Assembly (NCBI RefSeq): GCF_002379095.1
Contig: NZ_NBZV01000019.1
Span: 1 to 64,000, forward strand
Origin: Polaromonas sp. AER18D-145
GTDB lineage: Bacteria > Pseudomonadota > Gammaproteobacteria > Burkholderiales > Burkholderiaceae_C
Length of the DNA: 64,000 nucleotides
Direction of reading: 5' to 3'
Shown here one piece after another: positions 5,682-43,046 of the stretch. The notes below the pieces were generated by a model. The model did not search any database. It saw only the letters and a program-made list of their open reading frames with translations, and was not told where the DNA came from. Made by a program: the position numbers and the translations under genes. Position 1 is the stretch's first letter. Every line of letters starts with the position of its first letter.

Positions 5682-6452
5682 ATGACGGCGTGGCAAATCG
5701 CGCTCTTCCTGCTGTGTGTGGCCCTGGCGACCTGCGCCCAGAACCTCAGCGGTTTTGCGTTCGCGCTGATTCTGCTGGGCCTGGCTGGCCTGCTGGAACT
5801 GGCGCCGCTGGCGGACCTGGCCAACGTGGCCACCGTGCTGGCGCTGGCCAACGCCCTGGTCGCCTTGCGTCGCTCGGGCCGCACGCTCGATGTGCCCGCT
5901 TTCCGCGACACCGCGATGGGCAGTGCCGTGGGCATTCTGGCGGGTGTGCTGCTGGTCGGCTGGCTCAGCACCAACGTCACGCTGGTTTTACGTGTGTTGC
6001 TGGGCCTGACGGTGCTGGCCTGCGCCATCGTGGTGCTGCTGCAGGCCGCGGCCCTGCGCGAACGCTCGTCCGCCGCCTCGTTTCGCACCTGGGGCGTGAT
6101 CTCGGGCCTGCTGACCGGCCTTTTTTCGACCGGCGGGCCGCCGCTGGTCTACCACCTGTACCGTCAGCCCATGCCGCTGCGAACGGTGCGCGACACCCTG
6201 GTCGCGACGCTGGCGGCCAGTTCGCTGATGCGGCTGGCGATGGTCCTGGGCACCGGGCAGTTCAGCGCCAACGCGCTCAAGCTGTGCCTGCTTGCCGCGC
6301 CGCTGGTGTTCGGGCTAAGCTGGTGGCTGGAGCGGCACCCGCCCGGCTGGTCGCGACCCACGGTGCTCAAACTGGTCTGTGCGCTGTTGTTGCTGACGGG
6401 TGTCGGGCTGCTGGTTCCGGCGCTGCTGCAGATCGCCAGGACCGGCCTCTGA
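5682..6452 (+). CDS. TauE/SafE family sulfite exporter-like permease
   Basis: Integral membrane protein of 256 residues with about seven to eight hydrophobic segments. It has the family hallmark GLLTGLFSTGGPPLVYHLY at about 146-164, where glycine/proline-rich loops mark the transport path. The family exports or imports small anions such as sulfite or sulfoacetate. The substrate cannot be told from this sequence. It is the first of three closely spaced plus-strand genes (EVE protein 23 bases downstream, then DUF1499). Confidence 0.82.
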   Translation: MTAWQIALFLLCVALATCAQNLSGFAFALILLGLAGLLELAPLADLANVATVLALANALVALRRSGRTLDVPAFRDTAMGSAVGILAGVLLVGWLSTNVTLVLRVLLGLTVLACAIVVLLQAAALRERSSAASFRTWGVISGLLTGLFSTGGPPLVYHLYRQPMPLRTVRDTLVATLAASSLMRLAMVLGTGQFSANALKLCLLAAPLVFGLSWWLERHPPGWSRPTVLKLVCALLLLTGVGLLVPALLQIARTGL

Positions 6453-7458: not shown

Positions 7459-7518
7459 GCTACCAAAACAATAGCTGATTGCGCCCGCCACTATTGGGCT
7501 GGAGGCACTTTCTTTTAT
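7459..7518 (+). repeat. Dispersed extragenic repeat, copy A
   Basis: Copy of a short repeat found at several places in this window, with the order ATAGCTG, GCGCCCG, TATTGGGCTGGAGGC and a T-rich tail ending in TTTTAT. It starts right after the DUF1499 stop and lies between convergent genes. Confidence 0.75.
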
Positions 7519-23809: not shown

Positions 23810-24448
23810 TTGTTTTCGATCATACAAGCCGCAGGCTGGCCCATCTGGCCCCTCGTTGCCTGCTCCATACTGGCCCTGGCCCTGGTCATCGAGCGTTTTG
23901 TCAGCCTTAAAACCGGAAAAATTGCCCCGCCCAGGTTGCTGGACGAAGCCATCACCGTGTCGCGCGGCACGGTTCCCGCCCCCGACGTGGTTTCGCACCT
24001 CGAGCAGAACTCCCTGCTCGGTCAGGTGCTGGCCAGCGGTTTTCGTGCGCTCAACACCAACCCGCGCATCAGCGAGGACGATCTGCGCTCCACCCTCGAA
24101 GGTGCGGGCCGGCGCGCTGCCCACACGCTGGAGCGTTACCTCGCGGCGCTGGCCACCATCGCCTCGGCCGCCCCGCTGCTGGGCCTGCTCGGCACGGTGA
24201 TCGGCATGATCGAGATTTTCGGCTCGCAGGCCGGCAGCGGCGGCGTGGCCAATGCCGCGGGCGGCAACCCCGCGCAACTGGCACAGGGCATCTCGATTGC
24301 GTTGTACAACACCGCCTTCGGCCTCATCGTGGCGATTCCATCGCTGATTTTCTGGCGTTATTTCCGCGCCCGGGTGGACGGTTACCTGCTCACGATGGAG
24401 ATTGCCTCCGAGCGTTTTGTGCGCCACCTGAACACCCTGCGCAAATGA
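23810..24448 (+). CDS. exbB: ExbB/TolQ/MotA family proton channel protein
   Basis: Inner-membrane subunit that uses the proton gradient to energise TonB-type transport with ExbD. The 212-residue protein has three membrane segments (about 8-28, 112-135, 160-185) and the family core APLLGLLGTVIGMIEIF, followed by ISIALYNTAFGLIVAIPSLIF. I chose a TTG start at 23810 because GGGAGA lies eight bases upstream and the protein then begins LFSIIQAAGWPIWPLV, as in relatives. An upstream ATG (23717) adds residues without family similarity. exbD follows; no tonB is nearby. Confidence 0.88.
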   Translation: MFSIIQAAGWPIWPLVACSILALALVIERFVSLKTGKIAPPRLLDEAITVSRGTVPAPDVVSHLEQNSLLGQVLASGFRALNTNPRISEDDLRSTLEGAGRRAAHTLERYLAALATIASAAPLLGLLGTVIGMIEIFGSQAGSGGVANAAGGNPAQLAQGISIALYNTAFGLIVAIPSLIFWRYFRARVDGYLLTMEIASERFVRHLNTLRK

Positions 24449-24456
24449 TGAACAGG

Positions 24457-24550
24457 GCCCCCACGCTCGTCGCTTCGCGTACGTCGCTGTCCCCCGGGGG
24501 GGCGCATTTTTTCTTGGGGCGGCCCGGCGAAAAAACATCGGCCCCCACGC
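24457..24550. repeat. GC-rich extragenic repeat between exbB and exbD
   Basis: Contains GGCCCCCACGCTCGTCGCTT, a CCCCCGGGGGGG palindrome and TTGGGGCGGCCCGGCG, then a second GGCCCCCACGC. A related arrangement (CCCCCGTCG..., CCCCCCTCGAGGGGGCGGCGC) occurs at about 37987-38084. Both look like copies of a dispersed Comamonadaceae-type repeat. Confidence 0.55.
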
Positions 24551-24560
24551 GGAGGCCATC

Positions 24561-24989
24561 ATGAATTTCCGCAGAAGCTCCCGCGATGAACCCGAGATTA
24601 ACCTGATTCCGTTCATCGACGTGCTGCTGGTCGTGCTGATCTTCCTCATGCTGTCGACCACCTACAGCAAGTTCACCGAACTGCAGATCAAGCTGCCGGT
24701 GGCCGACGCCGACCAGCAGCGCGATTACCCCAAGGAAGTGATCGTGGCCGTCAGCAGCGACGGCCACTACATGGTCAGCAAGGTGCCTGTTCCCGGCCGC
24801 AGCATCGAGGCGCTGAGTGCCGCCATCAGCGCGGCGGCCAAGGCCGGCAAGGACAGCGTGATCATCATCAGCGCCGATGCCAGCGCCACGCACCAGTCGG
24901 TCATCACCGTGATGGAAGCGGCCCGGCGCAGCGGCTTGAGCCAAATCACCTTTGCCACCCAGAGCGCGGCGCAGGCCGGCGCCCGGTAA
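24561..24989 (+). CDS. exbD: ExbD/TolR family biopolymer transport protein
   Basis: Partner of ExbB. The 142-residue protein has a short cytosolic N-terminus, one membrane segment (about 14-36) preceded by [17 protein letters not shown], which carries the conserved aspartate that is protonated, and a periplasmic domain ending in a basic tail. A GGAGG ribosome binding site lies five bases upstream of the ATG. The 112-base spacer from exbB is filled by a repeat. lpxK begins one base after the stop codon. Confidence 0.92.
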
Positions 24990-24990
24990 A

Positions 24991-26040
24991 GTGGCAACCC
25001 GGCTGCAGCAGGCCTGGCTGCGGCGCGGCATGCTCGCCCGCCTGCTCTGGCCGCTGTCCTGGCTGTACGGCCTGCTGGCCGAGTTGCGCCGGCTGGCGTT
25101 CCGGGCCGGCTACTTCAGATCTGAACGCCTGCCCGTGCCGGTGCTGGTGGTGGGCAACGTGGTGGCGGGCGGAGCCGGCAAGACCCCGGCGGTGATTGCC
25201 CTGGTGCAGCACCTGCAGGCCCGCGGTCTGCAGGTCGGGGTGGTGTCGCGCGGCTACGGGCGTACCAGCCCGCATTGCCTGGAGGTGTTGCCGGGCACCC
25301 CCATCGAAGCGTCGGGCGACGAGCCGGCCCTTATACAGCGGGCGACAGGCGCTCCTGTTTTTGTAGCACCCCGGCGCGCCGAGGCCGCGCGTGCGCTGCT
25401 CGCTGCCCATCGCCCGACACAGCTGATCGTCTGCGACGACGGCCTTCAGCACTACGCGCTGCAGCGTGATGTTGAGATTGCGGTGTTCGACGAGCGCGGC
25501 GTCGGCAACGGCTGGCTGCTGCCGGCCGGCCCCTTGCGCGAGCCGTGGCCGGAGCGCCTGCGACGCGGCGTGCGCGCCGGCGGGCGCGGCATTGACCTGG
25601 TGCTGCACACCGGCGAACACGCCGCCTTTACGGGTTCTTCGGATTTTGGCTCGACGCGGCGCCTGGCCGACCACGCGCTGCGCGCCGACGGCAGCCGCGT
25701 GGCACTGGAGAGCCTGGCCGGCCAGCCGCTGCTGGCGCTGGCCGGCATCGCCAAACCCGAGGCGTTTTTTGCCATGCTCCGCGCCCGCGGCCTGGTGCTG
25801 GCCGAAACCCGGGCATTGTCTGACCACTACACTTTTGATAGCTACCCGCGCCCGCAGGACAAGGGTTACACCGTTATTTGCACTGAAAAAGACGCGGTCA
25901 AGCTGTTTCCCCGGCAAGCGGATGTGCTGGCCGTGCCGCTGGAGTTTTCACCCGAACCGGCCTTTTTCACGGCGCTCGACGCCTTGCTGGCCCCCCTGCT
26001 TTCTCCATTACCATCCACCCATGGACACCAAACTGCTTGA
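24991..26040 (+). CDS. lpxK: Tetraacyldisaccharide 4'-kinase
   Basis: Phosphorylates the lipid A precursor at the 4' position at the inner membrane. The 349-residue protein has an N-terminal membrane-associated helix ([19 protein letters not shown]), a P-loop [13 protein letters not shown] and the family motif [19 protein letters not shown], followed by [16 protein letters not shown] and near the end [11 protein letters not shown] chose the GTG at 24991, directly after the exbD stop; the longer frame overlaps exbD. The gene overlaps the trm112-type gene by 20 bases. Confidence 0.92.
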
Positions 26041-26203
26041 ACTGCTGGTCTGCCCCGTGACCAAGGGCCCGCTCGATTACGACCGTGAAAAACAGGAGCT
26101 GATCTCGCGCAGCGCACGTCTGGCCTACCCCATCCGCGACGGCCTGCCGGTGATGCTCGAGAGCGAAGCGCGCACCCTCACAGACGAGGAACTCGGGCTG
26201 TGA
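26021..26203 (+). CDS. Trm112 family protein
   Basis: Small protein of 60 residues ([20 protein letters not shown]...), the bacterial Trm112/YcaR type commonly encoded between lpxK and kdsB. The fold is a zinc-ribbon-like domain, but only one cysteine (CPVTKG) is present in this bacterial branch. In eukaryotes and archaea Trm112 activates methyltransferases; its role here is unknown. It overlaps the end of lpxK, so it is translationally coupled. Its last codons are duplicated just downstream. Confidence 0.88.
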
Positions 26204-26240
26204 CCCTGGATGCTTGCGACGAGGAACTCGGCCTGTGACC
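26183..26240 (+). repeat. Direct duplication of the trm112-type gene end
   Basis: The 23-base block 26183-26205, containing the last codons and stop of the trm112-type gene, recurs at 26218-26240 with one mismatch, giving a 35-base period. The second copy is in the spacer before kdsB. Confidence 0.85.
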
Positions 26241-26248
26241 TGCCGCGC

Positions 26249-27016
26249 ATGAGTTTTACCGTCCTGATCCCGGCCCGCCTCGCGTCCACCCGCCTGCCCG
26301 ATAAACCGCTGGCCGATATCGCAGGCGTGCCCATGGTGGTCCGGGTGGCGCAGCGCGCCATCCAGAGTGGCGCAACCCGCGTGGTGGTGGCGGCTGACAG
26401 CCGCCAGATCGTGGCGGCCTGCGCCGCCTTTGGCGTGACCGCCGTGCTGACCCGTCCCGACCACCCGAGCGGCAGCGACCGGCTGGCCGAGGCCTGCGAC
26501 CTGCTGGGACTCGGTGACGCGGAATGTGTGGTCAATGTCCAGGGCGACGAACCACTGATCGACCCGGCGCTGATTGATGCCGTGGCCCATCTGCTGGACC
26601 AGCGCAGCGACTGCGCCATGAGCACGGCCGCCCATGCCATCGCCAGCCTCGAGGAACTGCTGAACCCGAATGTCGTCAAGGTGGTGCTGGATGCACGCGA
26701 CACGGCGCTGTATTTCAGCCGCGCGGCTATCCCGGCCGCGCGGGATTTTTCCGGCCAGGCCTGGTGGCAGGCCGGCCATGCTGCGCAGGATCTGCCGCCC
26801 CCATTGCGCCACGTGGGCATCTATGGCTACCGCGTCGGTTTCCTGCGGCAGTTTCCGGCCTTGCCCCAAGCGCCGCTGGAGCGGCTGGAACAACTCGAGC
26901 AGCTGCGCGCGCTCTGGCACGGCCATCGCATTGCAGTGCACGTCACCACGCAGGCACCCGGGCCTGGCGTCGACACCCCCGAGGACCTGGAGCGCGTGCG
27001 ACGGCTGTTTGTGTAA
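26249..27016 (+). CDS. kdsB: 3-deoxy-manno-octulosonate cytidylyltransferase
   Basis: Activates Kdo with CTP to CMP-Kdo for lipopolysaccharide core synthesis. The 255-residue protein has the nucleotide-binding start [31 protein letters not shown] with the metal-binding aspartate, [13 protein letters not shown], and [13 protein letters not shown] near the C-terminus. I chose the ATG at 26249 (MSFTVLIPA); an upstream ATG at 26210 lies inside the small duplication. It forms an lpxK-trm112-kdsB-adk run. Confidence 0.95.
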
Positions 27017-27059
27017 GCTGCGCGCAGGGGGACGCATGCTATCCTCCAGATCAAAATAA

Positions 27060-27782
<723 letters not shown>

Positions 27783-27799
27783 GCGCTCTCACCGCACCC

Positions 27800-27829
27800 A
27801 AAAAAAGGCCGTCGACAGACGGCCTTTTT
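27800..27829 (+). terminator. Rho-independent terminator of adk
   Basis: AAAAGGCCGTC / GACGGCCTTTTT stem with flanking A and T runs, 18 bases after the adk stop; it can act on both strands and also faces the end of the DUF6152 gene. Confidence 0.88.
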
Positions 27830-27861
27830 GCTGGGCGTCACTCACTGTCACTCACCGTCAC

Positions 27862-28341
27862 TCAGGCCGGACTGGACCTCAGGCCATACGCCTTGCCGTC
27901 GACAAACAGGTATTCGGCGCGCAAAATCGCGTCCCCCTTCTCGCCGGCGAAGGTGAAGCCCAACACCGAAATCTGCGTGCCGGGCTTGATCTCCGCGACT
28001 TTCCAGGCCTGCAGGCGCGTCAAGGGCGCCAGCTCGATCTCCCAGCGCCTGTCCTTGCGCGTGGGCAGCATGGCTTTGGCCAGCAAGGCCTTGCCATCGA
28101 CCGGGGCGCTCTGCGCCGGCAGCGCGCGCTGGGCAAGGTCGGCCGGCAGCTTCAGCGTGGCCGGCAATTCAATTTCCAGCTCGCCATGCGGGTTCTGCCA
28201 GAGGGACTTGAGCACCCTGCCTTCGAGGTAGATCGGCCGTTCCTGGTCAAAGCCGCTCCAGCCGTGGTGGGCCCGCGCAAAAGGCATCAGGCCGACACTG
28301 GAAACGGCACCTACGGCCCCGATCACGTCACGTCGTTTCAT
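27862..28341 (-). CDS. DUF6152 family exported protein
   Basis: Protein of 159 residues with a twin-arginine-like or general signal peptide (MKRRDVIGAVGAVSSVGLM, then ARA) and the family start HHGWSGFDQERPIYLEGRV. The remainder is a predicted beta-rich domain. Function is unknown. It is the last gene of a minus-strand series starting with an ECF sigma factor gene and including a periplasmic metal-sensor-like protein, which suggests a role in envelope or metal stress (inference). Confidence 0.7.
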   Translation of the reverse strand: MKRRDVIGAVGAVSSVGLMPFARAHHGWSGFDQERPIYLEGRVLKSLWQNPHGELEIELPATLKLPADLAQRALPAQSAPVDGKALLAKAMLPTRKDRRWEIELAPLTRLQAWKVAEIKPGTQISVLGFTFAGEKGDAILRAEYLFVDGKAYGLRSSPA

Positions 28342-28368
28342 CTGTCAACTCCTTGAGGGATGGTTTGC

Positions 28369-28788
28369 TTAGAGATAGGCGATCCAGCGACCGCACGCCA
28401 GTATGGCCAGCCAGATCAGGGTGGACATCGCCATCTGCACGCGCGCCCAGACATCGAGTTTGCCGAGCGAGCCGCGTCCGTGGAACCAGGCTGCATTACA
28501 CGCCGCGGTGAATAACAGCAGCATCTTCAGGGTAAAAGCCCGGTTGGCCAGCAATTCGCCCGGCTGGGACGCAAACATCAGCAGGCCGGACGCCGCAGCG
28601 ATGACGAAGCCGCTGAGGGCAAGGCCCAGGCTCAGGCGCGCCAGGTCTTTCACCGGAAGGGCCGCGCCCAAGCCGAACACCCGCAGTTCCAGCAGCACCA
28701 GGTTGCCCAAGAGCAGCGCGATACCGGTGATATGGACCATCTCCAGCGCTGGGTAGGCCCACAGATGGGATCTGAGCTCGGCAAACAT
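28369..28788 (-). CDS. DUF6644-like membrane protein
   Basis: Predicted membrane protein of 139 residues with about four hydrophobic segments: MVHITGIALLLGNLVLLEL, LSLGLALSGFVIAAASGLLM, FTLKMLLLFTAACNAAWF and MSTLIWLAILACGRW. The histidine near the N-terminus (VHITG) recalls small cytochrome-like or copper-related membrane proteins, but no cofactor motif can be named. I chose the ATG at 28788; an upstream frame to 28875 looks non-coding. It lies between the DUF6152 gene and the broken DnrO-like gene. Confidence 0.68.
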   Translation of the reverse strand: MFAELRSHLWAYPALEMVHITGIALLLGNLVLLELRVFGLGAALPVKDLARLSLGLALSGFVIAAASGLLMFASQPGELLANRAFTLKMLLLFTAACNAAWFHGRGSLGKLDVWARVQMAMSTLIWLAILACGRWIAYL

Positions 28789-28822
28789 GTCGGTGTGGAT
28801 CCCCCTGCGATGCGTCTGACTT

Positions 28823-29290
28823 TTAATGCGGCAACTTGACCGCCTGCCAGCCGGTGTGGTCGAAATACGTGCCATAGGTGTTCAGGCCCTGCGCGATTTT
28901 TACCACGCCTGATGCCCTGCTCTTGTCAGGCTGTTTGCCCTCTGCGGCTTCCGCGCCGTTCATCATGTCACCGATGATGATATGAAGTTGCGCATCCGCC
29001 TTGGGGTCAAGCTTGCAGTTTTAGGCGACCTGCACAGTGACTTCCCTGCCCAGCGCATCGTAGTCCGCCTTGCTGGCCTTGCCAGCGTGCGCTGCGGGCA
29101 AGGTGGTGGCAACGGATGACCTGATGGCGGTCATTGCCTGGCGTAAAGGGGCATCGGTCGCCCATTTCTTGCCAGCATTGAGTTCGATCTTTTGAGGCGC
29201 CGCGCCATCGTGCCCATGTTGATTGGCGGCCAGCGTTGCCAAAGGACTTGCCAGCGTTGCGACAATCAGTAAAGGTGTAAAAAATTTCAT
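28823..29290 (-). pseudogene. DnrO-like exported protein interrupted by an in-frame stop
   Basis: The frame starting at 29290 encodes a signal peptide and a small helical protein (HGHDGAAPQKIELNAGKKWA, TDAPLRQAMTAIR) and stops at TAA 29021-29023. The same frame continues for 65 more codons with clear family-like sequence (NCKLDPKADAQLHIIIGDM, then GVVKIAQGLNTYGTYFDH, VKLPH) and a stop at 28823-28825. A single base change, for example from a tyrosine codon, would explain the break. The family is exported, and its function is not known to me. The gene sits in the ECF sigma operon, where two other genes are also damaged. Confidence 0.8.
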
Positions 29291-29415
29291 GGTTTTCTCC
29301 GGTTCAGTTGAAAATGCTCAGCCAAACATTTGCCTGGCTTCTTACTTAAACGAGCAAGGACCGAAGATGTTCCATTTTTTTACCAAGCCGTCCGGAAAAC
29401 TGCCGCAGGACCGCA

Positions 29416-29889
29416 TCAATCACGATGCAGCAGCTCCTCCTTCGTGGCTTCCTGCTCGTAACGACTGAGCAGCAAGGCCATCAGCCTGGCGCGCTGGCTT
29501 TCATTGAGCAAATCGCGTTCGGCCAGCAGTTGGCTGATCACGCGCTGTTGCTGCGCATCTTGCAAGGCGGCAATCCGGGCTTGCTCGGCATCAATCGCGG
29601 CTCGCTGCGGCGTGCCTGCAAAAATGTGCCGTACCAGCGTTTCACGATGCTTGCGAATCTCACGCCAGTTGGCTGCAATATCCTGCAAAAAAACAGGTTC
29701 GAGTTGCTGCCAGCGCTGGCGCTGCTCATTGCTCAGTTGAAGGTAATCCGGCAAATTCACAGGCGGCGTTTGCGTGGTGTTCGCATGCGGCGGGAACGGC
29801 CGCAATTGGTTGAAGACAACAGTAGCGATGATGCCGAGATTCAGCGACAGCGACACGGCCAGTAGCCATTTCCATGCGGTGCGGTTCAT
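29416..29889 (-). CDS. Periplasmic heavy-metal sensor-like protein (CnrX/ZraP-type)
   Basis: Protein of 157 residues with an N-terminal membrane anchor (about 7-27) and a long helical periplasmic region: YLQLSNEQRQRWQQLEPVF, REIRKHRETLVRHIFAGTP and DAEQARIAALQDAQQQRVI. This LTxxQ-like helical hairpin arrangement is typical of the CpxP/ZraP/CnrX group, which sense metals or misfolding in the periplasm. A conserved H...H pattern is visible but the metal is not predictable. Its start overlaps the end of the anti-sigma gene (ATGA). It appears intact although its regulatory partners are broken. Confidence 0.75.
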   Translation of the reverse strand: MNRTAWKWLLAVSLSLNLGIIATVVFNQLRPFPPHANTTQTPPVNLPDYLQLSNEQRQRWQQLEPVFLQDIAANWREIRKHRETLVRHIFAGTPQRAAIDAEQARIAALQDAQQQRVISQLLAERDLLNESQRARLMALLLSRYEQEATKEELLHRD

Positions 29890-30262
29890 TGCATTCCTTT
29901 CGATAAGCGGCAGAGTTCAGCAGCGGCGCACAGTCCACCGGGCGGCACCGGATCGAACACGCGCACCATGCTTGCGGGCGGCGCGCCGCCGCCAAGCCGG
30001 CGGGCACCCAGTTCGACCAGAACGGCTGCGGGCGTCTTCGCACCGACCCGGCGCGCAGGCGGTCCTCGAGGCGCGCTCCAAGATTCAACCCCAGCGCCGG
30101 AGATGGCAGCGCGCCCAGGCTTTGCCGCAGCGCGCTAATCTCATCGAGCCGCAGCCGGCAGACCGGGCAGCCCGCCAAATGCGCGGCAAACCGTTCTTGG
30201 TCACGGGGCTTGAGCATGTGATCCGCGTAGGCGGAAAGGTCGTCATAGGGTGGGCAAGTCAT
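29886..30262 (-). pseudogene. Zinc-finger anti-sigma factor, apparently frameshifted with membrane segment lost
   Basis: The start MTCPPYDDLSAYADHM leads into the ZAS zinc motif HLAGCPVC and then LRQSLGALPSPALGL, as in anti-sigma factors of ECF systems. After WSNWVPAGLAA the frame continues into nonsense across the next gene start. In the +1-shifted frame a plausible ending follows (GGGAPPASMVRVFDPVPPGG, then LCRLSKGMQ and TGA at 29886-29888, overlapping the sensor start). Neither frame contains the membrane helix expected between these parts. I infer a deletion through the transmembrane region. Confidence 0.65.
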
Positions 30263-30276
30263 GGCAATTTCTCCAG

Positions 30277-30821
30277 TCAGCACTTTGTGTTGCCGAGCAG
30301 CGTAGCGCGCGCCCGCGCAATACGCGACTTGACAGTTCCGGGATTCAGGTCGAGCACAACAGCAATCTCCTCGTAAGACATTTCCTCGATTTCCCGCAGC
30401 AACAGAATCTCGCGATGTTCGACCGGCAAGCGCAACAATGCTGCCTCCAGCATGCGCAGGCGCTGGGACGTTTCGAGGGCAGCATCGGGCCCCGGCGCAG
30501 GGTCGGCAATTTCCGCATCTTCGTCCAGCGCCACAAATTCGACGCGTTTGTGGCGTCGCAACAGATCGAAGGCGAAATTGCGCGATGCGAAACAGCCAGG
30601 TCTTGTAGAGCGCGTCCGGCCGCCAACGCGGCAGACCCTGATAAGCACGCAAGAACGTCTCCTGCGTCAAATCCAGCGCGTCGTCCTCCGAGCGGGTAAG
30701 CCGCACAAGAAAGCGATAGATACGGTCCTGATAGCGTGCCACCAACTCCGAAAACGCTGCGACATCACCGCGCTGGGCGCGCGATGCATTCGTCCTCGTC
30801 GAGGTGGCTGAAATTTCGCAT
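30277..30821 (-). pseudogene. ECF-type RNA polymerase sigma factor with two frameshifts
   Basis: Three frames are needed to read one sigma-70 family protein. It starts MRNFSHLDEDECIAR, shifts near 30775 into QRGDVAAFSELVARYQDRIY and the region 2 segment LTRSEDDALDLTQETFLRA, then shifts again near 30590 into NFAFDLLRRHKRVEF and region 4 (LRLPVEHREILLLREIEEM, SYEEIAVVLDLNPGTVKSRI). The second break fits loss of one unit of a CATCG direct repeat. The stop is 14 bases before the anti-sigma start. A full-length sigma factor cannot be made without frameshifting. Confidence 0.82.
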
Positions 30822-30879
30822 GGTTGAAAGCTGATTTAACGAAGGGGCGCAAAAAAAGTTCCAACTCTCCAACTCTTGA

Positions 30880-31830
30880 TCAGGCGATCAGCTGAAGCAT
30901 CAGGTCCACACGTGCCTTCACCGGACTCAGACCCTGCGAATCCGCAATCGCGTCACCGTGCCTCGGCAACACCCTGCCCTCCAGGCAACGTGTGGCGCGA
31001 ACCACGCGCACGCCGGCCGCCTGCGCTTCCAGCAAGGCCGCCTCGAGCTCATGGTGCAACGTGCCGTTGCCCGTCGCCGCCACCACCAGGCCCTGCACGC
31101 CCGCGGCCACCAGTGCCTGCACCACGCCGGCGCCGACGCCCGCGTAATTCATCACGATCTCGACGCGGGGCCAACCCAGCCCGTCCTGCTGCTCCACTAC
31201 TTTTTTGATAGCGCCTGGCGCTTGATGGACGGGGGCTTCAGGCCAGTTTCTCACCATACGCAAACGCCCTTCCTCGACATAACCGACAGGCCCGGCATCG
31301 CCGGAGCTGAAGGCGTTGAGCCGGTAGGTATGCACCTTCTGCACGTCCGGCGCACCGTGAATGACGCCCGCGCACACGGCCAGCACGCCGCGTGCGCCGG
31401 GATGCGCGGCGACAGCCACCGCGTCCAGCAGGTTCTGTGGGCCGTCCGGCGCGAGCGCCGTGGCCGGACGCATCGCACAGGTCAGCACCACCGGCTTGCC
31501 GGGATGGAGCAACGCGTGCAGCAGCCAGGCGGTTTCCTCCAGCGTGTCGGTGCCGTGTGTCACGACGATGCCCTGCACATCGGGCTGCGCCAGAAAGTGG
31601 CTGACCCGCGCGGCGAGCCGGGCCCAGACCGCAAAACTCATGTCCTTGCTGTCGATTTGCGCCACCTGCTCGGTCACCAGATCGCAGGGGCCTTCGGCCA
31701 GGGCCGGCACGGCCTCGACCAGTTGGGCAATGCCCACCTGCGCGGCGGTGTAACCCGTATGGTCCGAGGCACTGGCGGCGGTGCCGGCAATCGTGCCGCC
31801 GGTACCCAGAATCACGATTTTTCTGTTCAT
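30880..31830 (-). CDS. L-asparaginase
   Basis: Hydrolyses L-asparagine to aspartate and ammonia. The 316-residue form starting MNRKIVILGTGGTIAG has both family signatures: GTGGTIAG with the first catalytic threonine and VTHGTDTLEETAW with the second catalytic Thr-Asp pair. The C-terminal domain contains NYAGVGAGVVQALVAAG and ATGNGTLHHELEAAL. An in-frame ATG at 31848 would add six residues. There is no obvious signal peptide, so it is probably cytoplasmic. A loop of about 17 residues (EAPVHQAPGAIKKVVEQQ) is encoded by a copy of a dispersed repeat. Confidence 0.9.
   Translation of the reverse strand: MNRKIVILGTGGTIAGTAASASDHTGYTAAQVGIAQLVEAVPALAEGPCDLVTEQVAQIDSKDMSFAVWARLAARVSHFLAQPDVQGIVVTHGTDTLEETAWLLHALLHPGKPVVLTCAMRPATALAPDGPQNLLDAVAVAAHPGARGVLAVCAGVIHGAPDVQKVHTYRLNAFSSGDAGPVGYVEEGRLRMVRNWPEAPVHQAPGAIKKVVEQQDGLGWPRVEIVMNYAGVGAGVVQALVAAGVQGLVVAATGNGTLHHELEAALLEAQAAGVRVVRATRCLEGRVLPRHGDAIADSQGLSPVKARVDLMLQLIA
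31196..31250 (+). repeat. Dispersed repeat copy H, inside the asparaginase gene
   Basis: ACTTTTTTGATAGCGCC, GGCGCTTGATGGACGGGGGC and TTCAGGCCAGTTT follow the same order as the intergenic copies (ATAGC, GCGC, GGGC, AGGCC, T-rich). It lies in frame in the minus-strand asparaginase gene and is translated. Confidence 0.6.
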
Positions 31831-31859
31831 AAGCGTTGAGACTTGCATTCTTTAAAAAA

Positions 31860-31894
31860 CTGGATGAAAATACAGCTACTGGTTATTAAAACAG
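31860..31894 (+). promoter_or_regulatory. Two tandem LexA boxes
   Basis: CTGG-N8-ACAG occurs at 31860-31875 and again at 31879-31894, 19 bases apart, close to the CTGT-N8-ACAG LexA consensus of proteobacteria. They lie 64-98 bases upstream of lexA and 12 bases beyond the asparaginase gene, so LexA autoregulation is expected and the divergent gene could also be affected. Confidence 0.78.
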
Positions 31895-31957
31895 CTCGCC
31901 AAGGTTCTTCATCCCATTCTGGACGATGGAATCACCTTTTTGACAAGGAGCCCCGTG

Positions 31958-32650
31958 ATGAGCAGCTTCAACGATTTTTCCGACATGCCCAAACTGACTG
32001 CACGCCAGCAGCAAATACTTGAACTGATTCAAAGCGCCATCGCCCGCACTGGCGCCCCGCCCACGCGGGCCGAAATCGCCAACGAACTCGGGTTCAAATC
32101 CGCCAACGCCGCCGAAGAACACCTGCAGGCGCTTGCCCGCAAAGGCGTGATCGAGCTGGTCAGCGGCACCTCGCGCGGCATCCGCCTGCGCAGCGACACT
32201 TTGCGCTCCATCAACGAGTCACGCATCAAACAGTTTTCCCTGCCGTTGCAAAGCCTGGCCCAACTCGCCCTGCCTCTGGTGGGGCGGGTTGCTGCTGGCA
32301 GCCCCATTCTCGCGCAGGAGCATGTGGACCACACCTATTATTTCGAAAGCAGCCTGTTCCAGCGCCAGCCCGACTACCTGCTGAAGGTGCGCGGCATGAG
32401 CATGCGCGATGCCGGCATCATGGATGGTGACCTGTTGGCCGTGCAGCAGACCAAGGAAGCCAAAAACGGGCAGATCGTGGTGGCGCGCCTGGGCGATGAC
32501 GTCACCGTCAAACGGTTCCGCCGCAACAAGAACCTGATCGAGTTGCTGCCCGAAAACCCCGACTTCAAAACCATTGTGGTCGAGCCCGGCGATGCCTTCG
32601 AAATCGAGGGCCTGGCGGTGGGCCTGATACGCAACACCATGCTGATGTAG
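31958..32650 (+). CDS. lexA: LexA repressor
   Basis: SOS-response repressor with RecA-stimulated self-cleavage. The 230-residue protein has an N-terminal winged helix ([35 protein letters not shown]), the cleavage-site region with [14 protein letters not shown], where the Ala-Gly bond is cut, and the S24 protease residues in [18 protein letters not shown] (Ser) and [16 protein letters not shown] (Lys). An AAGGAG site lies seven bases upstream of the ATG at 31958. The shorter start at 31985 is possible. Two LexA boxes precede the gene. Confidence 0.96.
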
Positions 32651-32798
32651 CCATGGTCCGGGCAGTGCGCATGCATGGACTGCCCATTTTTTTCCGCGCA
32701 ACAGGTGGCGGGCGTTTGGTCGCGTGGACCAACACCCTGGTGCGGCGGTTGTTCAGTTTGCAATCCTGCCTGTGTTTACCTCTACTTCTGGAGTTCTC

Positions 32799-33197
32799 AT
32801 GGGAATCGCCGTTTTTTCACGTTCACCCGCTCATTCACCCCTTTTGTCCCTGCTGCTCTCGCCGCTGCAGGCGCTTGCCTCTCTGCTGCGGCCGGTACAG
32901 CCAGTGACCCCCTTGCCCGCATTTGTCGCGGCATCACGGCGCGAGGCGACGGGTGAATTACCGGTGGCCCTCAAAGCCATGGCCACCAGCGCCCGCCACG
33001 CATCCGTGGCAGGCCACAAGCCTTGTCAAACCGTGGCCAAGGCCACGTCGCCGCGCCGGCTGAAAATCGTCCGCGAATTTGAGGCCGGCGTGAGTCCTTC
33101 ATGCGCCGGCCGCATGGTCATTTCGGGCCGCATGGCCGATGTCTGCGCCGAGCTCGATCGCATGGCCCAACGAGAGGCAGCTGTACAGTCCGCCTGA
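32799..33197 (+). CDS. Hypothetical protein downstream of lexA
   Basis: I cannot assign a family. The protein has 132 residues: a hydrophobic N-terminal third (LLSLLLSPLQALASLL), a variable middle, and a compact C-terminal segment (FEAGVSPSCAGRMVISGRM, then ADVCAELDRMAQREA) with two cysteines that looks conserved-domain-like. A GGAG ribosome binding site lies six bases before the ATG at 32799. It begins 148 bases after lexA in the same direction. Coregulation with the SOS system, as for sulA next to lexA in Pseudomonas, is only a possibility; no similarity to SulA is visible. Confidence 0.6.
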   Translation: MGIAVFSRSPAHSPLLSLLLSPLQALASLLRPVQPVTPLPAFVAASRREATGELPVALKAMATSARHASVAGHKPCQTVAKATSPRRLKIVREFEAGVSPSCAGRMVISGRMADVCAELDRMAQREAAVQSA

Positions 33198-33380
33198 AGA
33201 ACCTGGCGGGTCGGGTGCCCTGGCGCCCGCCCCGTCCCAAGCCGTAGAAACCGTTGGCGGCACTTGCTGTCGCGCAGCCGCCGGCAACATGGAAGGACCG
33301 CTACTTCCTTTCCGGGACTGCTACACCCCTTCATGCCCGTGCCGCGTCCCCGAGGGAAAACTTGCAGGCACAATATCGGC

Positions 33381-34388
33381 ATGAATATTGTGATCCTTGA
33401 CGACTACCAGGATGCGGTGCGCAAGCTCGCCTGTGCCGCGAAACTCGACGCTTACCAAGCCAAGGTCTACACCAACACCGTCAAGGGCATCGGCCAACTG
33501 TCCGTACGGCTCAAGGATGCCGATGTGGTCGTGCTGATCCGTGAGCGGACGCATTTGCCACGCCAGCTGATTGAGAAACTGCCCAAGCTCAAGATGATCG
33601 CGCAGACCGGCCGCGTCGGAAGTCATGTCGATGTCGGCGCCTGTACCGAGCGTGGCATTGTCGTCGCCGAGGGCGTGGGATCACCCACGGCACCGGCAGA
33701 ACTCACCTGGGCCCTGATCATGGCCGCCATGCGCCGGATTCCGCACTATGTCTCGCACCTCAAGCACGGCGCCTGGCAGCAGGCAGGCCTGAAAAACGCC
33801 TCGATGCCGCCCAACTTCGGCATCGGTTCGGTACTCAAGGGCAAGACCCTGGGCATCTGGAGCTACGGCAAGATCGGCCAGATTGTTGCCGGTTATGGCC
33901 GCGCTTTCGGCATGCGCGTGCTGGTGTGGGGCAGTCAGGCCTCGCGCGCACGTGCCCAGGCCGATGGTTATGAAGTAGCCCTTTCCAAGAACGAATTTTT
34001 CAGGGACAGCGATGTGCTCAGCCTGCACCTGCGGCTGCAGGACGACACACGCGGGGCAGTCACCCTGGAAGACCTGGCGCAGATGAAAACCTCGTCCGTG
34101 CTGGTCAACACCTCACGCGCCGAATTGATCGAACCCGAAGCACTGATTGCCAGCCTGAACCGCGGGCGCCCGGGAGTGGCGGCCGTCGATGTATTCGAGT
34201 CTGAACCCATCCTGCAGGGACATGCCTTGCTGCGCCTGGAGAACTGCATCTGCACGCCGCATATCGGTTATGTGGAGCAGGAAAGCTACGAGATGTATTT
34301 CAGCTCTGCCTTCGACAACGTGGTCAACTTCATCAAGGGCACGCCCACCAACATCGTCAACCCCGGCGCATTGCAGGTACGGCGTTGA
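33381..34388 (+). CDS. D-2-hydroxyacid dehydrogenase family protein
   Basis: NAD-dependent reduction of 2-oxoacids, related to phosphoglycerate dehydrogenase. The 335-residue protein has the catalytic triad regions: SRAELIEPEAL (Arg), VFESEPI (Glu) and CTPHIGYVE (His). The nucleotide-binding loop reads GIWSYGKIG, with serine where the first glycine of GxGxxG is usual. I chose the ATG at 33381 (MNIVILDDYQ), which fits the family; the longer frame from 33264 is untranslated leader. Substrate is unknown and it stands alone between unrelated genes. Confidence 0.88.
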   Translation: MNIVILDDYQDAVRKLACAAKLDAYQAKVYTNTVKGIGQLSVRLKDADVVVLIRERTHLPRQLIEKLPKLKMIAQTGRVGSHVDVGACTERGIVVAEGVGSPTAPAELTWALIMAAMRRIPHYVSHLKHGAWQQAGLKNASMPPNFGIGSVLKGKTLGIWSYGKIGQIVAGYGRAFGMRVLVWGSQASRARAQADGYEVALSKNEFFRDSDVLSLHLRLQDDTRGAVTLEDLAQMKTSSVLVNTSRAELIEPEALIASLNRGRPGVAAVDVFESEPILQGHALLRLENCICTPHIGYVEQESYEMYFSSAFDNVVNFIKGTPTNIVNPGALQVRR

Positions 34389-34454
34389 AGGTCAAAGGGC
34401 GCAAGGCCGCGAGCGCAGGCGGCCCCGGTGGCAGGCGGTTATAGACCCGGACGC

Positions 34455-36221
34455 TCAGAGTCGGGATTTGTCGACATCGTCGGGCCGGTAGCCCGTGTCG
34501 TAGTCATCAAAGTCCACCAGGGAATCCAGCCCCGTCGGCCTCACGGAGTTGGGCGCAATGGACAACGGTGAGGCCGCACCGGTACGCTGGCCGTCCCTGC
34601 GCCGTGCCGCGTGCGGCAGTTCCGCAAGGCTGGCGGGGGAATCGGCCCGTACAGGTTCCATTCGGGAAGCACGCCCCGTCGATGGAGTCCTGGCCGTTGC
34701 CTGGTTGTCCGCAGGCTTGCTGTCGCTGCCGTCTGACAGCCGGGTCAGGTCGATGTCCAGACCCAGGCGCGGCGAAGACCTCGGCTGCATGGCCAGATCG
34801 GGCCACTGGGTGTCGCCGCCGCGGCCGACCGAGCCGGATTCAAGTTCGATGATTTCGCGGCCCACGGCATACAGCAGCAGCAGTTCGCGATACTCCTCCA
34901 GGGCCAGCACCTCTGCGCCGTCGCCAGGCTCCCGAAACAGGGCCTCTTCAATGATCCTGAAGACCTGCCGCGTCGGCCACGCGGCCTGGATCTGCAACAA
35001 AATGGTGGCATAAGCGGCGCCTCCCGCACTGGCCGGCACGTAACGGTCGAAGGGCACAATCCGGGTGTTGAAAACCTTGTTGACATCGTCACGCAGGTCC
35101 TCGTAGTCCTGCACATTGCCGGTCTGGTGGTAGAGATCCAGCAGGTCCAGATAAATCAGCGCACTGGTTTTGACGTTGTCGACCAGGTGCTTGCGCAACA
35201 GCGCGATGGCATTGGCCTGCTGCCCCAGGGAGCTGAAAAACTCCACCTGCTGCTGAAGATCGAACAGTTCTGGAACCTTGACGGTCCGCGGCACGAAAGG
35301 CACGCTGACCGAGAAACGGGGGCGATCGCGGGGCGGCAGCGACGGGATGGAGTCGGCCGCTGGATAGCGGGACGCGCGCCTGAGCTCGTCGAAAAGCGAC
35401 TCATTGACGTCGAGATCAGCGGTCCGGCTTGCAGCCGCCATCGGCAAGCCTGTCGAGAGGCCGGATTCCGGGCTGAAAGTGCTGTGCTCGGAGGAAGAGA
35501 CGGTGCCCGCTGCCTGGGCGGTGGAGCGCAGGTACAACACGAAAAGCAGGCCCATGACCGCGAGGGAACAAAGAGCAGCCAGGCCATACACAACCACCTT
35601 GCCAAATCGCGCATTCTCGGCCTGCTCGAGTTGATGCCGGTTTTCGGCCAGCGCCGCCTGGTTGCGCATCATGTCTGCACGCAACTGGCGAAGCTCTGCT
35701 TCCAGCGTCTGGACCTTATTGCCGTCTGCTGTGCCGGCCACCGCTGACTGCGCCGGTGGTGCGCCCGCAGAAAGTGGCTGCGGATCTGCCGCCGCAAGCG
35801 TGGTTTGCAGACTGGCCCCCACCGCGCGCGGTTTGGTTGCCGCCAGCACCACATAACGGCGTATGGTTTTTTGTACGCACCCGGCACGCAGATGCACGGT
35901 GACCACGGGTCCTTCGACGGGTGTCGCAGAGCGGATATGGACCAGCCAGTCCTGGGCGGTGGCGCCCTTTTCCGGCGTTATCCGGACACTGGCCTTGTCG
36001 AGCGGCTTGTCCACGTAGAAAACATCGGCTTCAAGACACAGCGCCTGCGGGTCATCCCCGGTGTCAAGCATCAGCTGCATGGAAAGATCCAGCGGCTGGC
36101 CCAGCACGGCCGACCGGGTGCTGGGCCCCAATGTCACCGCCAAAGCACCCGCCGACAGACACAGCCACAGGCCCCCTGTCAGCAGGGCACGGTGTGGGAG
36201 TGGATGCAAAAAGGTGTTCAC
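34455..36221 (-). CDS. FimV-like membrane protein
   Basis: Protein of 588 residues. A signal peptide (about 1-28) precedes a FimV-type N-terminal domain (VTLGPSTRSAVLGQPLDLSM, then LEADVFYVDKPLDKASVRI), a coiled coil (about 165-203), one membrane segment (GKVVVYGLAALCSLAVMGLL, about 207-229), and a large cytoplasmic part with TPR-like helices (ANAIALLRKHLVDN, ALIYLDLLDLYHQTG). The C-terminal about 110 residues are disordered and end in an acidic tail. FimV-like proteins organise polar structures and type IV pili, but this one is shorter and lacks an obvious LysM motif. No pilus genes are nearby. Confidence 0.65.
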   Translation of the reverse strand: MNTFLHPLPHRALLTGGLWLCLSAGALAVTLGPSTRSAVLGQPLDLSMQLMLDTGDDPQALCLEADVFYVDKPLDKASVRITPEKGATAQDWLVHIRSATPVEGPVVTVHLRAGCVQKTIRRYVVLAATKPRAVGASLQTTLAAADPQPLSAGAPPAQSAVAGTADGNKVQTLEAELRQLRADMMRNQAALAENRHQLEQAENARFGKVVVYGLAALCSLAVMGLLFVLYLRSTAQAAGTVSSSEHSTFSPESGLSTGLPMAAASRTADLDVNESLFDELRRASRYPAADSIPSLPPRDRPRFSVSVPFVPRTVKVPELFDLQQQVEFFSSLGQQANAIALLRKHLVDNVKTSALIYLDLLDLYHQTGNVQDYEDLRDDVNKVFNTRIVPFDRYVPASAGGAAYATILLQIQAAWPTRQVFRIIEEALFREPGDGAEVLALEEYRELLLLYAVGREIIELESGSVGRGGDTQWPDLAMQPRSSPRLGLDIDLTRLSDGSDSKPADNQATARTPSTGRASRMEPVRADSPASLAELPHAARRRDGQRTGAASPLSIAPNSVRPTGLDSLVDFDDYDTGYRPDDVDKSRL

Positions 36222-36463
36222 TTGGCTGATTCTGGCATGTCCGGCCCCTGCAGGAAGTGCAGGCAGAGGTCACTTGAACGAAAAAAAGACACGGCCCCGG
36301 GCCGACCCGTCTGCCCCCGCAGCCCACGTCCCCGCACCTTGGTGGATAAAACCGTCGCACAAGTCTAACTCTCGACCCATGACCGCGCAAACGACGCGGG
36401 CCCTGCGAACGCCCCTCCAGCAGGATGTGGAACGCGGTCCGGGCTGCTGGATAATACTTTTCC

Positions 36464-37984
36464 ATGAAACCTCTTTTTAAAACTGTTGGCCTGGTTGGCA
36501 CGGGCGCCATGGGCCGGGGCATTGCACAAATCGCCGCGCAGGCGGGCAGCACCGTCAAGCTGTTCGACACCCAGGCGGGTGCAGCCGACAAGGCGCGCGA
36601 CGCACTGGCGGCGCAATGGGGCAAACTGGTGGACAAGGGCCGCCTCGACAGCGGCCTGGCCACCGGCCACAAAGCCCGCCTGCTGCGCGCCGACACACTT
36701 GAAGATCTGGCCGATTGCGACCTCGTTATCGAAGCGGTCGTAGAACGCCTGGATGTGAAGAAATCACTGTTTTTGTCGCTGGAAAGTGTTGTTTCCGAAC
36801 AAACCATCCTGGTGAGCAACACGTCCTCGCTGTCCGTCACGGCCATTGCCGCCGGACTCAAGCACCCGGGGCGTTTTGCCGGCTACCATTTTTTCAACCC
36901 TGTTCCGCTGATGAAGGTGGTCGAGGTGATTGCCGGCCTCAAGACGGACGCCGCAACCTGCAGCGCGCTGGCCGACTATGCGCGGCAAATGGGCCACACG
37001 CCGGTGCAGGCCCAAGACACACCGGGCTTCATCGTCAACCACGCCGGACGGGCCTACGGCACCGAGGCCCTGCGCATTGTCAGCGAAGGCATTGCCGATT
37101 TCGCCACCATCGACCGCATCCTCAAGGACCAGGCCGGCTTCAAGCTCGGGCCGTTTGAACTGATGGACCTGACCGCGCTTGATGTCTCGCACCCGGTGAT
37201 GGAGTCGGTGTACCACCAGTATTACGAGGAACCGCGCTACCGCCCCAGCGTGATCACGGCGCAGCGTCTGGCCGGCGGCCTGCTGGGCCGCAAAACCGGC
37301 GAAGGGTTTTACCGCTACACCGACGGCGCCGCACAAACCCCTGCAGAGCCGGCCGTGCCCGTGGTGGCCGAGATGCCCCCGGTCTGGGTGTCGCCCCGGG
37401 CGGCGCGCCGATCGGAGCTGCTGCAACTGCTCAAGAACCTCGGCGCCAGCATAGAGACCGGCGCGTCACCTTCGATGCATGCACTCGTACTGGTAGCGCC
37501 CCTGGGCTTTGACATCACCACCGTGGCCGTGGTCGAGCGGCTCGACCCCGCACGCACGGTGGGCATCGACATGCTGATCGACGACGCAGCCTGCAAGCGC
37601 CGCGTGCTGGCGACCAACCCTGCGACCCGCAGCGACATGCGTGACGCCGCGCACGCGCTGTTTGCGCGCGACGGCAAGGCCGTCAGCGTGATTCGCGACA
37701 GCGGCGGCTTTGTCACACAGCGTGTGGTGGCCGCCATCGTCAACATTGCCAGCGACATCTGCCAGCAGGGCATCTGCAGCCCCAAAGACCTGGAGACCGC
37801 CGTCACGCTGGGCTTGGGCTATCCCATGGGTCCGCTCGCCATGGGTGACCGTTACGGTCCCACCAACATCCTCGAAGTGCTGTTCAACATGCAGACCGTG
37901 TACGGCGATCCGCGTTACCGCCCTTCCCCGTGGCTGCGCCGCCGCGGCGCGATTGGCCTCAGCCTGATGCACGAAGAGGCATGA
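36464..37984 (+). CDS. 3-hydroxyacyl-CoA dehydrogenase (PaaH/PaaC type)
   Basis: NAD-dependent oxidation of 3-hydroxyacyl-CoA, probably 3-hydroxyadipyl-CoA. The 506-residue protein starts with the Rossmann motif GLVGTGAMGRGIAQIAA, has the catalytic histidine region FAGYHFFNPVPLMKVVEV, QDTPGFIVNHAGRAYG, and two consecutive C-terminal domains, the second with DSGGFVTQRVVAAIVNIA. This two-domain length matches phenylacetate-pathway dehydrogenases. An enoyl-CoA hydratase gene follows after a repeat. It could also serve the lower part of the box pathway encoded 8 kb away (inference). Confidence 0.88.
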   Translation: MKPLFKTVGLVGTGAMGRGIAQIAAQAGSTVKLFDTQAGAADKARDALAAQWGKLVDKGRLDSGLATGHKARLLRADTLEDLADCDLVIEAVVERLDVKKSLFLSLESVVSEQTILVSNTSSLSVTAIAAGLKHPGRFAGYHFFNPVPLMKVVEVIAGLKTDAATCSALADYARQMGHTPVQAQDTPGFIVNHAGRAYGTEALRIVSEGIADFATIDRILKDQAGFKLGPFELMDLTALDVSHPVMESVYHQYYEEPRYRPSVITAQRLAGGLLGRKTGEGFYRYTDGAAQTPAEPAVPVVAEMPPVWVSPRAARRSELLQLLKNLGASIETGASPSMHALVLVAPLGFDITTVAVVERLDPARTVGIDMLIDDAACKRRVLATNPATRSDMRDAAHALFARDGKAVSVIRDSGGFVTQRVVAAIVNIASDICQQGICSPKDLETAVTLGLGYPMGPLAMGDRYGPTNILEVLFNMQTVYGDPRYRPSPWLRRRGAIGLSLMHEEA

Positions 37985-37986
37985 AG

Positions 37987-38084
37987 CACCCCCGTCGGAC
38001 GCGCACTGCGTGTAGCGCCTTCCCCCCTCGAGGGGGCGGCGCCTGTGGACCGGCAAAGCCGGTTCCACGGCCCCCGTTGTTGCG
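37987..38084. repeat. GC-rich extragenic repeat between the dehydrogenase and hydratase genes
   Basis: Contains a CCCCCCTCGAGGGGG palindrome and a second hairpin (GGACCGGCAAAGCCGGTTCC). Its layout resembles the repeat between exbB and exbD. Confidence 0.5.
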
Positions 38085-38134
38085 GGAACGCATTTCCTGC
38101 CCATTCCCCATTTCTCTGTATTGGAAAAACTGAC

Positions 38135-38914
38135 ATGGCAGGCGCACTCAAAAGCACCAGCGACGGCGCCACCTTGGTGCTGACCCTGAGCAACCCGGAA
38201 TTCAAGAATGCACTCGGGCCGGAAATCTATGCCGCGGGCGTGGAAGCGCTCAACGCGGCCGAGAACAACCCCGACATCCGCAGCGTGGTCATCACCGGCG
38301 AAGGCGGCAACTTCTGCGCCGGCGGCAACCTGCATCGCCTGCAGGGCAACCGGCAACTGCCCATGGAAGTGCAGGCCCAGAGCATCAATGGGCTGCACAG
38401 CTGGATCGACTCGATACGCACCTTCCCGAAACCGGTGATTGCCGCGGTCGAGGGCGCCGCGGCCGGTGCCGGTTTTTCCCTGGCATTGGCCTGCGACTTC
38501 GTGGTCGCCGCAGACAACGCTGTTTTTGTGATGGCTTACAGCAGCGTCGCGCTGTCGCCTGACGGCGGCGGCAGCTGGGCCCTGAGCCGGGCTCTGCCGC
38601 GCGCGCTGGTCGCGGAGCTGCTGATGTGCGGTGAGCGCATAGGCGCACCGCGTCTCCATGCGCTCGGCCTGGTCAACCGCAGCGTCGCCGCCGGTGATGC
38701 GCTCAGCGAGGCACTGAAACTGGCCGACACGCTCAATGCGCGTGCGCCCAATGTACTGGCCAGCATCAAGGAACTCATCAATGACGCTCAGGCCAACACC
38801 CTGAGCCAGCAGCTGGACGCCGAACGCGGGCATTTCGTGCGCAACCTCCACCATCCCAATGGCGGCGAAGGCATTGCGGCCTTTCTGGAAAAGCGGCCGC
38901 CGGTCTACGACTGA
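38135..38914 (+). CDS. Enoyl-CoA hydratase/isomerase family protein
   Basis: Crotonase-fold protein of 259 residues. The oxyanion-hole segments are GEGGNFCAGGNLHRLQ and AVEGAAAGAGFSLALACDF, and SSVALSPDGGGSWALSRAL lies where the general acid/base region is expected. The protein resembles enoyl-CoA hydratases annotated in Burkholderiales as alternative oxepin-CoA hydrolases, but sequence alone does not settle the substrate. The ATG at 38135 begins MAGALKSTSDGATLVLTL. It follows the 3-hydroxyacyl-CoA dehydrogenase, suggesting consecutive steps of CoA-thioester beta-oxidation. Confidence 0.85.
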   Translation: MAGALKSTSDGATLVLTLSNPEFKNALGPEIYAAGVEALNAAENNPDIRSVVITGEGGNFCAGGNLHRLQGNRQLPMEVQAQSINGLHSWIDSIRTFPKPVIAAVEGAAAGAGFSLALACDFVVAADNAVFVMAYSSVALSPDGGGSWALSRALPRALVAELLMCGERIGAPRLHALGLVNRSVAAGDALSEALKLADTLNARAPNVLASIKELINDAQANTLSQQLDAERGHFVRNLHHPNGGEGIAAFLEKRPPVYD

Positions 38915-39045
38915 GCGGCCGCGGGAACGCCGCCCGTGCTTGCGCACGGGGCGGGCGGCCGGGACACCGAGGCGACAGATGGCGGCCTGTGGCATCGTCG
39001 CTGGCGCGACAATAGCTTTCTTGTGAGTCACCCAAAAGACAGGCT

Positions 39046-42947: not shown

Positions 42948-43046
42948 GATTCCGGCTTTTCTCTTAAAGTGCTTGAGAACTCGTCCACCCGCCAGCAAGA
43001 CGGCGCGGACAGCCTCTTTTCCATCATAGTTCCAAAGGTTGCGCTC

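Follow-up and report, generated by a model that had tools for sequence, protein, structure and literature searches.

A compact regulatory cassette of ~2.1 kb in Polaromonas sp. AER18D-145 very probably entered this lineage after its split from the closest known relatives, with horizontal transfer as the probable route, settled within an asparaginase-DUF6644-DUF6152 unit and was then disabled by deletions. In the window (the whole stretch of 64,000 nucleotides analysed here) the cassette genes occupy 28823-30821 of the minus strand, in the order sigma factor, anti-sigma factor, sensor and DnrO-like gene. As a unit it would comprise an autoregulated sigma factor, a membrane anti-sigma factor, a CnrX-like periplasmic sensor and an exported helical protein, DnrO-like, with a sigma-type promoter of its own. 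The name DnrO is a label carried over from the initial annotation of this DNA, and no Pfam family matched the protein in the two intact relatives scanned. The features are the following:

30880-31848, minus strand: asparaginase gene, with a stop that differs from that of close genomes
28789-30882, no strand: whole cassette, the putative inserted stretch of ~2.1 kb; 16-33 bp occupy the same place in the five closest genus members (BLAST anchors)
30838-30862, minus strand: ECF-type promoter-like site GGAAC-N16-CGTT, 5' of the sigma gene
30277-30821, minus strand: ECF sigma factor gene, broken, with regions 2 and 4 out of a common frame
29888-30262, minus strand: zf-HC2 anti-sigma factor gene, broken
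29416-29889, minus strand: Metal_resist (PF13801) sensor gene, intact, with a presumed N-terminal membrane helix
29349-29373, minus strand: second ECF-type promoter-like site GGAAC-N16-CGTT, 5' of the DnrO-like gene
28823-29290, minus strand: DnrO-like gene, broken, with TAA at 29021-29023
28369-28788, minus strand: DUF6644-like gene, open, an older resident of the site (Pfam score of 15.9 bits, short of the 27 required)
27862-28341, minus strand: DUF6152 gene, open, an older resident of the site

Deletions in three cassette genes

The lesions, read from one draft assembly of 135 contigs, were defined by a DNA alignment of the window cassette with the cassettes of six relatives, one of which (L009) ends at a contig edge inside DnrO. 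The sigma gene lacks 2 nt near 30782 and a further 2 nt near 30585, the exact placement being ambiguous within CG runs. Regions 2 and 4, the sole promoter-binding domains of the sigma-70 type and both matched in the window and in L008, lie in one frame in L008 and in separate frames in the window, where the sigma coding sequence is spread over three frames instead of occupying a single open reading frame. In the anti-sigma gene a deletion of ~58-61 nt near 29986 relative to the six relatives shifts the frame and takes out a hydrophobic, presumably membrane-spanning stretch that by eye is present in all six. The shortened anti-sigma factor retains its zinc-finger part, and a different frame still encodes the conserved C-terminal peptide. 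From the DnrO-like gene 9 nt are missing at 29023/29022, which creates the TAA at 29021-29023; origin of this stop by substitution is rejected because the 9 nt are absent relative to the relatives. All four lesions are thus deletions spread over three genes, each of which carries a frame-disrupting change relative to intact orthologues, the mark of a pseudogene, and the sensor gene is full length and open.

The initial annotation had described two frameshifts in the sigma gene and a frameshift with loss of the membrane segment in the anti-sigma gene, and the alignment to intact homologues that it had proposed as a check bears out both, resolving the damage in these two genes into three deletions. 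Its open frames for the sensor, DUF6644 and DUF6152 agree with the list of open reading frames. The in-frame stop it saw in the DnrO-like gene is present too, as the product of the 9-nt deletion.

With tblastn the sigma gene is recovered in three pieces and the anti-sigma gene in two in the window, and every gene is recovered whole, as one match, in the 20 relatives' loci that carry DnrO. No internal breaks were found in the 21 relatives' loci checked; seven sigma genes flagged among the relatives reflect the natural gene end, and contig ends cut two relatives, L009 in DnrO and L045 in sigma. No second copy of the sensor or of DnrO that could act as a backup was found in the organism's own genome.

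Two further observations concern the anti-sigma gene. Because of the frameshifts, a single 339-codon open frame with a TTG start (29726-30745, minus strand) runs through both sigma region 2 and the zinc-finger part of the anti-sigma factor, which is probably accidental. The peptide RVFDPVPPGGLCA at the C-terminus of the anti-sigma factor does not vary among the six aligned relatives (for example L008:3055-3504); it may contact the sensor.

Probable insertion site and distribution of the cassette

Judged by asparaginase, the closest genus members are G025, G103, G087, G048 and G032 (flank identity ~90-95%). In all five, asparaginase is followed directly by DUF6644 and DUF6152, without the cassette, and from this arrangement an older asparaginase-DUF6644-DUF6152 unit most likely received an insertion of ~2.1 kb (28789-30882). 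Asparaginase is matched in 77 of 87 genus genomes (own included), and the 29 best matches besides the own genome were followed. The cassette-free arrangement recurs at 13 of these 29 loci, adk adjoins asparaginase with the DUF genes absent at 10, and 6 were not resolved in the fetched flank; none of the 29 carries the cassette at this site. Parsimony accordingly favors an insertion here over repeated loss elsewhere. Conversely, tblastn with the window proteins found neither DUF6644 nor DUF6152 in the 23 fetched cassette loci, whose flank lengths vary, and in the fetched stretches of intact relatives neither the window's asparaginase nor adk lies beside the cassette. Asparaginase in the close genomes reads a few codons past the window's stop, which would fit an insertion that cut off the end of the gene. 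Among the frames listed for 28789-30882 none was recognised as a mobility gene, and no clear target duplication was seen at the cassette ends.

In the closest genomes DUF6644 starts a few bases after the asparaginase stop (window equivalent of the DUF genes 27862-28788), a spacing that suggests a shared transcript for asparaginase and DUF6644 there.

Presence of the cassette is patchy. The sensor profile matches 4 of 87 genus genomes, namely the own genome, G007 (71%) and the distant G027 and G035 (40-42%), so that near copies of the cassette number two of 87 with the own genome included. At E 1e-20 the profile matches 17 of 399 family genomes (own included) in 9 of 141 genera, and the nearest sensors are 69-77% identical. 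Intact cassettes in Acidovorax soli (L005), Acidovorax defluvii (L006), an Oxalobacteraceae MAG (L007), Rhodoferax sp. BP02 (L008, the same place as L031) and other family members have the window's four genes, their order and the two promoter sites, with no internal breaks found. In a tree of the joined proteins (20 rows) the window copy joins L031 of Rhodoferax sp. BP02, another genus in the set (support 93.8/92), and its pairing with the same-genus copy of G007 is rejected (AU p 0.013).

Among the relatives, L036 and L038 (genus g128) have the cassette alone in common, at 84%, with unrelated flanks. Against this, L038, L040, L041 and L042, from three genera in the set, have cassette and flanks in common over 8-12 kb at 94.8-99.7%, so there the cassette did not move alone; in L036 and L037, too, cassette and flanks go together, at 98.5% over 6.9 kb. 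Absence from the site in close relatives and conflict with the tree are both signs of horizontal acquisition, and they stand beside the missing mobility gene and target duplication; together the sequence comparisons point to horizontal movement of a compact unit.

As a separate observation, L038, L040 and L041 (genomes G448, G313 and G132) agree at 99.5-99.7% over 7.7-11.7 kb around the cassette, with one of them assigned to another genus, which reflects either a larger stretch that was transferred recently or bins that are mislabelled or contaminated.

Promoter sites and a comparison with CnrYXH

The pattern GGAAC-N16-CGTT lies 5' of sigma in all 19 relatives whose contig includes the sigma start, and 5' of DnrO in 20 of 20 relatives, with a spacing of 17 in two (L043 and L044); both promoter-like sites are retained in the window. 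In the distant cassettes without DnrO (L048-L050) the pattern is found 3' of the sensor in three of three and 5' of sigma in two of three, L050 having no strict match before sigma. Other matches are located elsewhere in L032, in L033 and in the window at 56465. AAC and CGT boxes are described as typical of ECF sigma factors, most of which activate their own operon (PMC8103513). Judged by sequence, promoter-like sites of this type are present in the window and in the relatives, where the four-gene cassette keeps the same genes in the same order, and by comparison with that description the cassette resembles a self-contained regulon that controls its own expression and has DnrO for output. A scan of the own genome for a wider regulon, using a pattern that excludes the DnrO site, returned one match (the sigma promoter) against two for the reversed control.

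A protein with the motif AHCDTEDGP recurs near some of these cassettes. L043-L045, of one genus, have an extra GGAAC/CGTT site 5' of its gene and an S26 signal peptidase gene (L043:5978-7149; L045:1198-2377; L044, minus strand from 5574), and the protein of L043 matches DUF6448 (6.4e-51). The HCD motif together with an S26 peptidase is reminiscent of nickel superoxide dismutase with its maturation protease. In the distant cassettes L048-L050, AHCDTEDGP-like proteins appear by eye 3' of the sensor, in the place of DnrO.

The sensor matches PF13801 (Metal_resist) over the full family length (8.9e-19). Its model consists of an N-terminal helix followed by three helices (mean pLDDT 68.6), with the N-terminal helix (residues 3-28) at pLDDT <50. 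Foldseek places CnrX, ZraP, CpxP and Spy chains among the top rows at E 0.31-0.62, which is not significant (no CnrX row falls below E 0.36), and with VIA CnrX scores Z ~7, with unrelated helical proteins as high or higher; a comparison with PDB sequences gave no match to solved chains. The Pfam family and the weak fold similarity of the model suggest that the sensor probably senses metal. The intact DnrO-like protein of L008 is modelled as a four-helix bundle after a low-confidence stretch of 41 residues (mean pLDDT 72.5), and its fold search returned no row at E 0.001. The N-terminus of the DnrO-like protein resembles a signal sequence by eye. DnrO-like proteins on plasmids are represented by six records, all <60% identical, and the three of six neighbourhoods inspected were mixed.

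The closest known counterpart in layout considered here is CnrYXH, which likewise combines a sigma factor, a membrane anti-sigma factor and a membrane-anchored periplasmic sensor (anchoring of the cassette sensor is predicted, and this sensor belongs to Pfam Metal_resist). It differs in gene order, which in the cassette is sigma, anti-sigma, sensor, and in output, since the cassette has no efflux genes and carries the DnrO-like protein instead; moreover CnrY presumably has no zinc finger. The cassette anti-sigma factor has a zf-HC2 domain, and CnrY is assigned to another structural class (PMC8103513). When periplasmic Co or Ni is bound by CnrX in C. metallidurans, CnrY releases CnrH, and freed CnrH promotes transcription of cnrYXH and cnrCBAT (PMC4803752, PMC7689651). 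A similar mechanism is probable for the intact cassette: a signal in the periplasm, most plausibly a metal, would act through the sensor on the membrane anti-sigma factor, which would free the sigma factor to transcribe its own operon and DnrO.

In the own genome a working sigma factor would not be made and the switch would be dead. A functional sigma factor cannot be made from the listed frames, and both promoter sites should therefore be silent unless another sigma factor reads them; other ECF matches exist in this genome, the best at C84:16238-16783 (E 3.4e-36). The open sensor gene would simply not yet have been hit. By arithmetic, four random deletions over ~2 kb spare a 474-bp gene about 1 time in 3, so the intact sensor needs no selection.

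Age of the breaks and competing explanations

Only one of 171 columns invariant in the other distinct relatives is changed in the window (sigma 0/54, anti-sigma 1/27, sensor 0/51, DnrO 0/39). Single relatives mostly score similarly, with L046 as an outlier. Relative-rate differences in dN between the window and L007, L008 and L002 range from -0.157 to +0.055 with no consistent excess, in a comparison where dS is near saturation and a change of a few percent would be invisible. Relaxed selection was thus not detected by this weak test. With conserved columns almost unchanged and no excess in dN, the breaks are therefore either very young or absent from the organism.

To gauge noise in the assembly, the window was aligned with G087, G025 and G103, all three of which cover 47,685 bp of the 64,000. 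Indels were counted as private when the same kind and length of difference occurred within 8 bp in all three genomes, a definition that differently placed or sized indels can escape. Ten were private to the own genome, four of them multiples of 3 and six single-base, and no private frame-breaking indel was found in a recognised gene over the 47,685 bp. The single-base indels at 24991, 33305 and 43000, read in detail, lie between genes or outside recognised genes; those at 7517, 49639 and 49651 lie outside likely genes by their position in the list of open reading frames. When frames were chosen by G+C pattern, 5 of 50 matches (G087), 10 of 48 (G025) and 6 of 45 (G103) were still flagged as broken, and 10 of the 12 flagged matches with internal stops had these within 40 codons of an end. 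G025_23 was discarded as a broken gene, its stops at codons 15 and 84 of 686 falling ahead of the start of the window's 588-codon frame, as was G025_54 with its mid-frame stop, a frame that runs antisense to an intact TauE gene (5682-6452). The follow-up covered the frame-change cases around 24991, 48513, 8880 and 5500. Whereas the 2-kb cassette holds four deletions, no recognised window gene was found frame-broken. The claim that neighboring genes are intact thus holds over the 47,685 bp aligned to three close genomes, and general assembly noise is not supported.

Three other features of the window emerged alongside. The 1-nt insertion at 43000 relative to the three close genomes fuses frames into a 556-codon open frame with no Pfam match, probably spacer and not a gene. 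A dispersed G+C-rich repeat at 37985-38092 is listed 44 times in the own genome, counting this copy (78-100% identity), is frequent in genus relatives too and folds somewhat better than shuffles (z -2.43). Another frequent element near 24456-24550 folds no better than shuffles; no Rfam match was found in 24000-39000.

Errors of reading or assembly confined to the cassette, leaving the switch intact in the living organism, would accommodate the almost unchanged conserved residues, a draft of 135 contigs and the uniform nature of the lesions, which are deletions throughout and in two cases losses of 2 nt in CG runs. We nevertheless consider such errors unlikely, as the 47.7 kb compared with three close genomes showed no frame-breaking indel in a recognised gene under the definition above and losses of ~60 nt and 9 nt are atypical of base-call errors. 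If the deletions are real, they may have preceded or followed arrival. The young appearance of the copy and the lack of an intact one at this site in 29 genus loci are compatible with a cassette already broken when it came, but decay after arrival fits equally and the former is an improbable account. The order of the lesions bears on a further proposal, that loss of the anti-sigma membrane segment came first and left an uncontrolled, costly sigma factor that was then inactivated. Inactivation of CnrY or CnrX derepresses CnrH target genes in Cupriavidus metallidurans (PMC4803752), and the sigma gene has two separate breaks; yet lesion order is unreadable from one genome, and the shortened anti-sigma factor, which keeps its zinc finger, might still bind sigma, so we hold this sequence of events to be doubtful.

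The arrangement that the initial annotation proposed, in which six resident genes form one decaying operon and DUF6644 and DUF6152 have lost their regulator, draws on the closely spaced, co-directional window genes. It is scarcely credible given that asparaginase directly precedes DUF6644 at 13 of 29 genus loci, that the cassette is there in none, and that 23 fetched cassette loci contain no match to either DUF gene. The genes that lost a regulator are the cassette's own, and any effects on the DUF genes would be secondary: the insertion separated them from asparaginase and placed them behind the DnrO promoter site. The annotation's view that the sigma/anti-sigma/sensor switch was lost recently fits the data as to the loss, but the switch itself looks like a recent arrival and not the native regulator of the DUF genes. 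It is conceivable, though quite improbable, that a minimal mobile regulon moves precisely from promoter to last stop, rewired DUF6644-DUF6152 behind a sigma-dependent promoter and was silenced quickly by several deletions under host selection.

Acquisition of the cassette followed by its disabling is thus the reading we prefer, and the locus then holds an accessory regulon whose gain and breakage are both recent, a case of a common kind that calls for no new mechanism. Horizontally acquired genes turning into pseudogenes are a known general kind, with which the window has its recent arrival, patchy presence and disruptive deletions in common, and from which it differs in being almost free of amino-acid decay. 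Four deletions with conserved residues nearly untouched weigh against this reading, as ordinary neutral decay would lead one to expect a smaller share of indels. For this organism the regulator looks like a newcomer and not the lost master of neighboring genes, and close relatives whose site lacks the cassette set a limit on how long ago it was inserted. The intact copies in relatives outline a small conserved regulon of sigma factor, anti-sigma factor, sensor and DnrO whose promoter sites are clear, and in which the role of DnrO and the signal of the sensor are easily tested.
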